From positions 1 through 55,772 of the forward strand of contig CAIQBN010000567.1 in assembly GCA_903870065.1 (NCBI GenBank): a stretch of 55,772 bases of DNA, in the 5' to 3' direction. The notes beneath the pieces were generated by a model. The model saw only the letters and a program-made list of their open reading frames with translations. It was not told the origin of the DNA and did no database searches. Of this stretch, positions 12,608-16,819 are shown piece by piece. Positions within the stretch are counted from its first letter, which is position 1. Each line of letters begins with the position of its first letter. This DNA comes from an uncultured beta proteobacterium (GTDB lineage: Bacteria; Pseudomonadota; Gammaproteobacteria; Burkholderiales; Burkholderiaceae_C). The position numbers and the translations under genes were made by a program.

Positions 12608-13927
12608 TCATTTGGAGGCCTGGATCTTGCGGTACAGCGAGCGCACACTGATACCGAGGCGGGCCGCAAGTTCTGCGCGGGTCCCTTGGTGGCTCAATGC
12701 AAGCTCTCGCCAAGTTTCCTGTGGGTCGTGATGCAGCGCAGGCGTAGTGAATGGCGCGGCATTAGCAGGTGCAAACTGGCGACGCCCGGACTGCTCCAGT
12801 GCTTGCTCAATATGCCGCTGCTGAACTGTGTCACCATCGCATAAGAGTGAGGCACGCTCCAGCAGGTTGCGCAGTTCGCGCACATTGCCCGGAAAGACTT
12901 GGGCTTGCAGTAATGCCAGTCCTTGATCGCTGATCGACAGCGTGCGACCCGTTGTAACCCGCCGCAGCAATGCATCTGCCAAGAGTGTGATGTCTTCGCG
13001 GCGCTCGCGCAAAGCGGGCAGATGAATAGGAAACGTGCTGACCCGGTAGTACAGGTCTTCTCGGAAGCGTCCTTCGGACACCATGCGGTCAAGGTCCCGG
13101 TGCGTGGCTGCCACAACCCGAATATCGGCGTGACGCAACTCGGTGCTGCCCACCCGGCGATAAGTGCCGCTCTCCAGCAGACGCAGCAGCTTGACCTGCA
13201 TACTCAAGGGGATGTCGCCAAGCTCATCAATAAACAAAGTGCCGCCGCTGGCGGCCTCAACCAAGCCCCCTTTGGTTGCCGTGGCGCCGGTAAATGCGCC
13301 ACGTTCATGGCCAAACAGTTCGGACTCAAATAGATTCTCGGCTAGGCTGGAGCAGTCAACCGCCACCAGGGGGCGGTGTGCGCGTGGACTAGCTGCATGC
13401 ACAGCCCGTGCGACGAGTTCCTTGCCGGTACCCGACTCGCCCAACAGCAGCACCGTGGCCTGCGCAGGAGCAACCCGCGCAACCAGCGCCAGCATGCGTT
13501 GGAATGTGGGTGCGCGCCCGATGAGGCTTTGTGCTTGTGCTTGTCCGTGTGCCACGTGCAGCGGGTCCATTTTTTCGATGAAAAAAGCCTGTTTTCCGCT
13601 GGCATCGCGTACCGGTGATAATTCAATTTGAACGTATTCCTCACCGTTTGGCGTGTGGTGCAGGTGCAGTACGCGCTCGCGCTGACCAGACTCGCGCGAC
13701 TGAACTAACGGACACGATTCTCCAGCTTGATCACACGGGACGCTGAAATGGTGGGAAACCTCATAACAGGCGCGCCCGACCACACTGCGATCGGGGCTGA
13801 ATTGGCGACGGTACGCCGCGTTGGCCGCCAGGATGCGGTATTGGGCGTCAAAAAGGATGTGTGGCTCTGCCATACCTTCCAGATAGGACACCAGTTCCGG
13901 TAGAGGCTTTGCAGTGGGTTCTGTCAT
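12608..13927 (-). CDS. Sigma-54-dependent transcriptional activator (PAS, AAA+, Fis-type HTH)
   Basis: PAS region; Walker [15 protein letters not shown] loop in [16 protein letters not shown]-terminal [23 protein letters not shown]. Confidence 0.92.
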
Positions 13928-13960: not shown

Positions 13961-14018
13961 TGCCAAATTACTGCCAACTGAATGCCAAGTTAGTGCTAAT
14001 TAACTGCCAAGTTTGGCA
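13961..14018. promoter_or_regulatory. Candidate upstream activator sequence: five 11-bp iterons plus an inverted TTGGCA
   Basis: TGCCAA at 13961, 13972, 13983, 14005 and TGCTAA at 13994, each 11 bp apart; TGCCAAGTTTGGCA palindrome at 14005-14018. Confidence 0.65.
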
Positions 14019-14100: not shown

Positions 14101-14116
14101 TGGCACGTTTCTTGTA
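14101..14116 (+). promoter_or_regulatory. Candidate sigma-54 (-24/-12) promoter
   Basis: TGGCACGTTTCTTGTA versus consensus TGGCACGNNNNTTGCW: one mismatch, at the -12 C; correct spacing; follows the iterons and precedes the MBL gene. Confidence 0.6.
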
Positions 14117-14212: not shown

Positions 14213-14833
14213 ATGTATTTCCGCATTCTTCACAATGAGTTCACTGGCGAGCTGAGCTACTTGTTGGCCGACGCCGATGCGCGCGAGGCGGTTTTGGTGG
14301 ACCCCCATGCCTGTGACTTGCCGCTGTTGCAATCGTTGCTGGCTGAGCGTGAACTGCGCTTGCGCTGGGTGCTTCGAACACACGAACACGATCATCTGGC
14401 ACCAGATGAACCCGCAGCGCTGGCGCAACTTGGAGCTCCGGTCGTGCAGGGACATCGGGCGGCGACTGTGCGCTCCGTCGCACACGGCGATATGCTTGCA
14501 TTTGGTAGTGAGGTAATGACCGTCCTTGCCACACCGGGGCACACCACTGCCTGCCTGAGTTTCGCTTGGCGGGACCGCCTTTTTTGCGGCGGCTTGCTGG
14601 CTGTGGACAGTTGTTCATACCAGCCCAAACCAGCCGCGCCGCGGGCGCTGTGGGACAGCGTGCATCAGCAGGTATTTACCTTGCCTGATGAGACACTGGT
14701 GTTTGTCGGACAGGGGCGCCGCGCAAGGGCGGTCAGCACCGTGCTGGAGGAGCGACGCTGGCATCCGTTTTTTGCCGGCTTGTCACGGGACGTATTTCTT
14801 GCCCGCGTGACGATGCTGCCGCAGACCGTCTGA
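14213..14833 (+). CDS. MBL-fold protein related to ETHE1/glyoxalase II-like hydrolases, with altered metal ligands
   Basis: RTHEHDHL, TPGHTTACLSF and STVLEERRWHP resemble the ETHE1-like family; usual GD and AHDY motifs replaced. Alternative start 14177. Confidence 0.78.
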   Translation: MYFRILHNEFTGELSYLLADADAREAVLVDPHACDLPLLQSLLAERELRLRWVLRTHEHDHLAPDEPAALAQLGAPVVQGHRAATVRSVAHGDMLAFGSEVMTVLATPGHTTACLSFAWRDRLFCGGLLAVDSCSYQPKPAAPRALWDSVHQQVFTLPDETLVFVGQGRRARAVSTVLEERRWHPFFAGLSRDVFLARVTMLPQTV

Positions 14834-14862: not shown

Positions 14863-15285
14863 ATGACAGAGTTATCTGCGGTGCAAGCCACCTCTCCTGC
14901 ACCCTATGAGCGGCTCGGTGGCGCCGATGGCGTGCGCCAGTTGGTGCAACGTTTTTATTCACTGATGGATGAGTTGCCAGAGGCACACCGGGTGCGTAGC
15001 CTGCATCCGCAAGACCTCCAGGGCAGCGCCGAGCGGCTTTATGAGTATTTGTCGGGTTGGTTTGGCGGGCCGGATCTGTACGTGCGGAAATATGGTCATC
15101 CGCGGCTTCGTATGCGTCATAGCCCTTACGCAGTGGGTGCGGCGCAACGTGATGAATGGATGTTGTGCATGAGCATGGCGCTGGCAGAGCAGGTGTTGGA
15201 CGAGGCGCTTCGAGCGCACCTGATCCGCACATTTGGCCAAATCGCAGACCACTTGGTCAACACAGAGACGGGCGCTGCGATATGA
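14863..15285 (+). CDS. Group II truncated haemoglobin
   Basis: PYERLGGADGVRQLVQRFY...YGHPRLRMRHSPYAVGAAQRDEWMLCMSMAL. Confidence 0.9.
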   Translation: MTELSAVQATSPAPYERLGGADGVRQLVQRFYSLMDELPEAHRVRSLHPQDLQGSAERLYEYLSGWFGGPDLYVRKYGHPRLRMRHSPYAVGAAQRDEWMLCMSMALAEQVLDEALRAHLIRTFGQIADHLVNTETGAAI

Positions 15286-15352: not shown

Positions 15353-16819
15353 GTGAACAACAAGACCGAAAAAGGCCGGCTAATTATTCCAATTGCCGTG
15401 TCAGATGACAAAGGGCCAATAGAGCCGCCACCGGGTGCAGACGCCGAACTGGTTTCCCTTTATGAGGCGCACAAGAAAATCTATCCGCGAAGCGTCTCCG
15501 GGTTTTTTTCCAATTGGCGCTGGGCGATGGTGTTTTTGACACAACTGATCTTTTATGGCCTGCCGTGGCTGGAGTGGGGACAACGTCAGGCGGTGTTGTT
15601 TGACTTAGGCGCCCGCCGCTTTTATATCTTTAATTTGGTGCTTTACCCGCAGGACTTCATTTACCTGACCGGTATCTTGGTGATCTCTGCCTATTCGCTC
15701 TTCCTGTTCACGGCTGTCGCCGGGCGCCTATGGTGCGGTTATGCATGCCCACAGACCGTTTACACCGAAATATTCCTATGGATTGAAAAGAAGCTCGAAG
15801 GCGACCGGTCTGCTCGCATGCGCCGTGATGCTGGCCCATGGGGCTCTGAAAAAATTGCCCGCAAAGCCGGCAAACATGGGTTATGGCTGACATTGGCGCT
15901 CATGACAGGCTTTACGTTTGTGGGCTATTTCACCCCTATTCGCGAGTTGGGCGGCGAATTCTTCCGTTGGGAACTCAGCTCCTGGGAGATTTTCTGGACC
16001 TTTTTTTATGGCTTTGCCACCTATGGCAATGCTGGTTTTATGCGAGAGCAAGTGTGCAAATACATGTGCCCCTATGCACGCTTTCAAAGTGCCATGTTTG
16101 ACAAAGACACCCTCATCGTCACCTACGATGCCGAGCGTGGTGAGCCCCGTGGCGCACGGTCCAAAAAGGCCGATCCGGCCAAGTTGAATTTGGGGGCTTG
16201 TGTTGATTGCAGCCTTTGTGTTCAGGTCTGTCCTACAGGAATCGACATCCGCAAGGGCTTGCAGTATGAGTGCATCGGTTGCGGTGCGTGTGCGGATGTA
16301 TGCGATACCGTGATGGACAAGGTCGGTTACCCGCGTGGCTTGGTGAAGTACTCCACTGAAAACGCAATTCACCAGCACTGGACCAAGGCCCAGACCTTGC
16401 GCCATGTCCTGCGCCCACGGGTGCTGGTGTATTTGGCTATTTTGGGAGTGGTGGCAACCGCTATGTCGGTCAGTCTTTCCATGCGAGTGCCGTTCAAGGT
16501 GGATGTAGTGCGGGACCGTGGGGCGCTGGCGCGTGTTGCTGACGGGGGTCAAATCGAAAACGTGTTTCGCCTTCAAATCATGAACGCGACGGAGGCCACG
16601 CAGCAATTCCGTATTGGAGTATCGGGTTTGCCCGGTCTGCAAGTCGTATCGGAAAACGACATCGCTATCGCATCCACTCAAGCGCGCTGGGTTGCTGTCA
16701 GGGTCCAGGGCGCTATGGACGGTGCCGCCCCAGGATCGCATCCGATTTACTTCGAAATCGCTGCGCAAAGTGGCATTGGGAAGGTAACGGAAAAGGCAGC
16801 GTTCATCGTGCCCCGCTAA
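15353..16819 (+). CDS. ccoG: Cytochrome c oxidase accessory protein CcoG (FixG/RdxA family), GTG start
   Basis: TM segments, WCGYACPQTVYTEIFLWIE, dual 4Fe-4S motifs CVDCSLCVQVCPTGIDIRKGLQYECIGCGACADVCD, C-terminal Ig-like domain. Confidence 0.94.
   Translation: MNNKTEKGRLIIPIAVSDDKGPIEPPPGADAELVSLYEAHKKIYPRSVSGFFSNWRWAMVFLTQLIFYGLPWLEWGQRQAVLFDLGARRFYIFNLVLYPQDFIYLTGILVISAYSLFLFTAVAGRLWCGYACPQTVYTEIFLWIEKKLEGDRSARMRRDAGPWGSEKIARKAGKHGLWLTLALMTGFTFVGYFTPIRELGGEFFRWELSSWEIFWTFFYGFATYGNAGFMREQVCKYMCPYARFQSAMFDKDTLIVTYDAERGEPRGARSKKADPAKLNLGACVDCSLCVQVCPTGIDIRKGLQYECIGCGACADVCDTVMDKVGYPRGLVKYSTENAIHQHWTKAQTLRHVLRPRVLVYLAILGVVATAMSVSLSMRVPFKVDVVRDRGALARVADGGQIENVFRLQIMNATEATQQFRIGVSGLPGLQVVSENDIAIASTQARWVAVRVQGAMDGAAPGSHPIYFEIAAQSGIGKVTEKAAFIVPR

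Follow-up and report, generated by a model that had tools for sequence, protein, structure and literature searches.

The window analyzed here is a 55,772-nucleotide stretch of DNA from an uncultured beta proteobacterium. It was found that five head-to-tail half-sites, each exactly 11 bp from the next and closed by a palindrome, lie between the gene of a FisR-like sigma-54 activator and a divergent sigma-54 promoter. The five repeats are very probably docking sites of the neighboring FisR, as judged from sequence comparisons. It is likely that the array is a FisR enhancer (UAS) through which sulfide or persulfide would switch on an MBL-globin-ccoG operon, transcribed from the sigma-54 promoter at 14101. 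Since the half-site, its phasing, and its placement between fisR and the promoter recur at most orthologous loci, the array is most simply explained as an enhancer of the protein encoded at 12608-13927.

Five phased half-sites beside fisR

The sequence TGCYAA starts at positions 13961, 13972, 13983, 13994, and 14005, in steps of 11, 11, 11, and 11 bp. On the forward strand, the half-site units are unit 1 (TGCCAAATTAC, 13961-13971), unit 2 (TGCCAACTGAA, 13972-13982), unit 3 (TGCCAAGTTAG, 13983-13993), and unit 4 (TGCTAATTAAC, 13994-14004). The core is TGCCAA in units 1, 2, 3, and 5, and it has one mismatch in unit 4 (TGCTAA). Unit 5 and an inverted TTGGCA ending at 14018 form the palindrome TGCCAAGTTTGGCA at 14005-14018. 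This palindrome includes TGCCA-AGTT-TGGCA, which is a FisR-type dyad in view of the recurrence of TGYCA-N4-TGRCA described below. The window array has six half-sites in total, five direct and one inverted. The possibility that the direct units are overlapping dyads was ruled out by inspection, as the position of the inverted partner is mismatched in units 1-3.

TRF detects the array independently. An earlier reading of this DNA, made from the sequence only, had placed five half-sites 11 bp apart at the same starts, with a palindromic last one, and both the sequence and TRF bear this out. Its expression "perfect helical phase" is slightly strong; the 11-bp steps are exact, but 11.0 bp per step against 10.5 bp per turn results in a drift of about 2 bp across the whole array.

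The array is real and is not a product of chance. When the 286-bp intergenic region was dinucleotide-shuffled 2000 times and any hexamer with a period of 8-14 and one mismatch was allowed, none of the shuffles reached five units; the maximum was 4, seen twice, while the observed run is 5. Under the same criteria, no run of 4 or more units besides the array was found in the 55.8-kb window, and no three TGCYAA at 11 bp were found elsewhere in the assembly, which comprises 5.4 Mb in 703 contigs. Although this assembly is fragmented, named strains (e.g., L040, L041, and L047) show the same architecture, which argues against an assembly artifact.

Regulator, promoter, and putative target operon

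The regulator gene, at 12608-13927 on the reverse strand, encodes a FisR-like sigma-54 activator of 439 amino acids. The protein has a PAS-like N-terminal domain, an AAA+ domain with GAFTGA, and a Fis-type HTH, and matches Pfam PF08448, PF00158 (E 8.5e-67), and PF02954 (E 6.9e-07). Thus, it has the sigma-54 AAA+ and Fis-type HTH domains of FisR-type activators. It also has the three conserved regulatory-domain cysteines of the Cupriavidus type; C54, C65, and C72 form the motif C-x10-C-x6-C in the N-terminal regulatory domain. I take the cysteine spacing of Cupriavidus FisR to be identical to this. The Cys triad is present in all 90 rows of the FisR tree, and the GAFTGA of the window protein is found in 83 of the 90. 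The array starts 34 bp before the fisR start codon, and this short distance may point to autoregulation of fisR.

A -24/-12 (sigma-54) promoter, TGGCACG-TTTC-TTGT, lies at 14101-14115 on the forward strand, 82 bp past the dyad, and matches the pattern TGGCA[CT][AG]N4[CT]TG[ACT]. The array lies about 83-140 bp upstream of it, in agreement with the earlier estimate of about 85-140 bp upstream of TGGCACG-N4-TTGT. A UAS is expected to lie some 80-200 bp ahead of its -24/-12 promoter and to recur at orthologous operons. The array is within this range, and the half-site, the phase, and the distance recur, but the exact array does not. The same pattern is found target-ward in 64 of the 94 upstream regions described below. 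The -12 element is TTGT at 14101-14115 and TTGA or TTGT in most of the relatives' promoters, whereas the consensus is TTGC.

The likely targets are three genes on the forward strand. The first (14213-14833) encodes a persulfide dioxygenase (PDO)-like MBL-fold protein with altered metal motifs, as indicated by structure matches and a homologue alignment (best solved-structure matches, 9rhq and 4ysb; also ETHE1 4chl). The second (14863-15285) encodes a bacterial-like (truncated) globin (PF01152, E 6.6e-36), and the third (15353-16819) encodes CcoG/RdxA/FixG (TIGR02745 above the cut-off). In the MBL-fold protein, the HxHxDH motif is one residue short (THEHDH; THHHD or THQHD in relatives), and a G replaces the expected aspartate of the metal-binding GD. 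Since the 12 aligned homologues have the change in common, it seems to mark a conserved family of altered-site proteins or pseudo-enzymes and does not look like a sequencing error.

The window fisR is divergent from this PDO-like gene. Orthologous fisR genes often face cydAB (cytochrome bd oxidase), as in L115, L035, L047, and L051. This suggests that the regulator may switch on a sulfide-tolerant oxidase. Other orthologous fisR genes face Rieske-globin-MBL-ccoG operons or a TehA-like transporter gene, and the gene faced by a distant orthologue (L010/L119) is SQR (3sz0, E 1e-162). The fisR-facing genes fit the protection of respiration from sulfide. Among them, only SQR is directly concerned with sulfide, so that sulfide is a putative signal for the window's FisR.

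Half-sites and phasing in orthologous regions

The fisR orthologues were taken from close relatives, a collection of genome contigs, 400 genomes of the family, and 398 genomes of the order. After the removal of near-duplicates, there were 94 upstream regions (the window included), counted before the order-level set; for replication at the order level, 27 regions belonging to further families were used. Four or more TGNCA words per 180 bp before the promoter were found in 69 of the 94 regions (73%), compared with 2.8% of the controls (1853 windows elsewhere in the same loci). Most of the relatives' regions have 3-7 half-sites. When a half-site is read on the TGYCA strand, the preceding base is C in 64%, resulting in the consensus CTGYCA, and the spacer columns between half-sites are near uniform. 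Among the 94 regions, three orthologues (L122, L129, and L130) have no TGNCA cluster beside fisR; perhaps their targets lie elsewhere.

Half-sites of the same direction are most often 9-11, 19-22, 31-33, or 43 bp apart, and the counts fall between these values. The regions were de-duplicated by shared words, and the window was excluded from the period estimate. The same-direction period is 11.0 bp (vector strength R=0.54), a value reached by 0 of 500 nulls; these shift each site by up to 12 bp and thus preserve local density, though not shared ancestry. Leaving out the first turn does not abolish the signal. For inverted TGYCA..TGRCA pairs, the peak is at 8-9 bp, corresponding to a 13-14-bp dyad, and the period is 10.4 bp (0/500 nulls). 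In the 27 regions from other families, the periods are 10.3-10.7 bp overall and 10.5-10.7 bp for the same-direction spacing, with 0/500 nulls in each class.

The 13-14-bp dyad TGYCA-N3/4-TGRCA is the commonest arrangement across the regions. The N4 form is present in 37 of the 94, and an N3 or N4 dyad in 53. In 17 of the 25 regions having both an N4 dyad and a promoter, the dyad ends 82-88 bp before the promoter. Outside the window's family, L247 and L250 have a pair of TGNCA-N4-TGNCA dyads separated by about four helical turns (41 bp). As a genome-wide predictor of FisR targets, TGYCA-N4-TGRCA was too unspecific, with 84 places in the assembly against 13 for a reversed-pattern control.

Direct arrays and dyads

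Runs of 3 or more same-direction half-sites in 10-11-bp steps were found in 8 of the 90 tree rows. The run length is 5 in the window and L204, 4 in L207, L213, and L186, and 3 in L140, L145, and L221; a strict regular expression scores the window run as 3 (unit 4 has TGCTA), and it was hand-set to 5 for the tree. On the 90-row FisR tree, a quick tree with many open forks, the direct-run label changes 7 times, and at least 5 changes are forced by well-supported branches. Thus, direct arrays arose repeatedly. When the 400 family genomes were searched for four TGYYA units at 11 bp without regard to fisR, 14 had a match, several of them in simple repeats. One match other than the window, G330:C237:2585-2622, is immediately upstream of a fisR of its own, at 2757. 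In L005, the closest same-genus orthologue, the terminal palindrome is kept, the steps are 11/10/11 bp, and TGACA and TGTCA variants occur. The arrays of the nearest relatives have fewer units than the window's five.

In summary, the five-fold direct array as such is not widespread among the orthologues; the half-site and the phase are conserved, but the arrangement is not. The sequence-only reading had proposed enhancer-type sites for the adjacent activator, a view to be given up if the array were not conserved upstream of orthologous operons, and the comparison speaks against it in part. What survives is the half-site (C)TGYCA with its phasing and placement, which most FisR orthologues share in their upstream regions, in the family as well as in other families of the order, while the five-fold arrangement has to be given up as a conserved trait. 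The reading had also described a tandem array of direct half-sites and called it unusual, which is somewhat too strong. The five direct units are there, but since the window also has the 13-14-bp dyad, its array is not purely direct, and this dyad is what relatives most often have. CbrB and Nla28, discussed below, are precedents for such arrays. Furthermore, since TGNCA is self-complementary except for the middle base, the distinction between "direct" and "inverted" is smaller than it seems; only the middle base and the outer C tell the orientation of a half-site. Such near self-complementarity may be the reason why the arrangement can drift.

A possible mechanism and its alternatives

The C-terminal HTH of FisR would read TGNCA half-sites (consensus CTGYCA), and selection would keep several of them within about 60 bp on the same helical face, with a defined spacing to the promoter. 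The allowed arrangements would be a 13-14-bp dyad, head-to-tail repeats one turn apart, or both. In the window, the six half-sites may gather FisR subunits on one face and aid the assembly of the AAA+ ring, which would contact sigma-54 by looping. The inducer would be sulfide or persulfide. A stronger version, which I regard as tentative and rather doubtful, is that FisR reads phase and not symmetry. One TGNCA half-site would serve each subunit, the six in the window would serve one hexamer, and orientation would be optional, so that enhancers drift between dyads and head-to-tail arrays with the half-sites kept on one face. The agreement of six half-sites with the subunit count of a hexamer may be a coincidence.

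Tandem units can arise by slippage, and the dyad is the commonest conserved element. The terminal dyad at 14005-14018 might therefore be the functional part alone, with the four upstream units being leftovers of slippage duplication. This is unlikely; the units share TGCYAA but differ outside this core, whereas copies from a recent duplication would be alike, and many lineages have extra phased half-sites beside dyads. The at least 5 tree changes needed for direct runs also speak against it. It is quite improbable that an OmpR/PhoB-type response regulator, instead of FisR, binds the array as a multi-box operator. Regulators of this type recognize direct repeats in tandem, spaced about 11 bp (hexamer-N5-hexamer), the spacing and the head-to-tail orientation of the array match the generally known PhoB/PhoP style, and the TGTCA variants in relatives resemble the PhoB core. 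However, the fisR-side half-sites across the order are mostly inverted N3/N4 dyads or stand in 8-, 9-, or 10-bp steps, which misfit a reader of fixed 11-bp direct repeats only.

An 11-bp TTGGCA array automatically yields overlapping GG-N10-GC. The array might thus represent minus-strand sigma-54 promoters facing fisR for its autoregulated transcription; three TGGC-N9-GC elements exist on the fisR strand of the window, and the geometry gives a short leader ahead of the fisR start. I consider this very improbable, as one of the 94 regions has the full pattern on the fisR strand, against 64 that have it target-ward, and the 10-bp steps of relatives (L213 and L204) destroy GG-N10-GC. Hardly credible is an intrinsic curvature element that aids looping and contains no protein site. 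The spacers of the window are indeed AT-rich and in phase, but those of relatives can be non-AT-rich (gcggc, gaacgc, and gatcgc in L204) with TGNCA kept, the uniformity of the spacer columns gives no sign of such a bias, and the inverted dyad would be left unexplained.

If the array is a FisR enhancer, a recognition rule can be predicted for a widespread sulfide-sensing activator, namely CTGYCA in helical phase with a dyad-promoter distance of usually 82-88 bp. The natural series from dyads to head-to-tail arrays of five lets dyad symmetry be tested against one-face half-sites as the basis of ring assembly.

Comparison with known systems

The literature search made for TGTCA in connection with sulfide and sigma-54 gave no match. 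The FisR proteins of Cupriavidus pinatubonensis and Acinetobacter baumannii resemble the window's FisR as sigma-54 activators of sulfide/persulfide genes (PMC9774590, PMC12170894, PMC7315123). In reviews, Cupriavidus FisR is said to sense reactive sulfur through three conserved cysteines (PMC9774590; see also PMC12170894), a Cys-based sensing that parallels the Cys triad of the window protein. The A. baumannii fisR has a divergent predicted sigma-54 promoter, and its protein is without the cysteines (PMC7315123). Unlike in these two systems, the putative target operon in the window is MBL-globin-ccoG.

The enhancer-binding protein CbrB of Pseudomonas putida resembles the window system in that it uses several short subsites that are non-palindromic and share one helical face, with variable spacing and a cumulative effect (PMC6296734). 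The CbrB subsites, TGTTAC, are 20-25 bp apart in mixed orientation, while those of the window are one turn apart with five head to tail (PMC6296734). Nla28 of Myxococcus xanthus is similar in that 3-5 tandem imperfect half-sites, nearly self-complementary, lie upstream of sigma-54 promoters. It differs in its half-site, CT(C/G)CG(C/G)AG, and in its variable spacing with a mean of about 25 bp; the accessible part of that report describes no fixed helical step (PMC9765219). NorR requires several enhancer sites as a scaffold for a higher-order oligomer, to which the window array may be likened, but it has three enhancer sites and senses NO through a GAF domain (PMC2941729).
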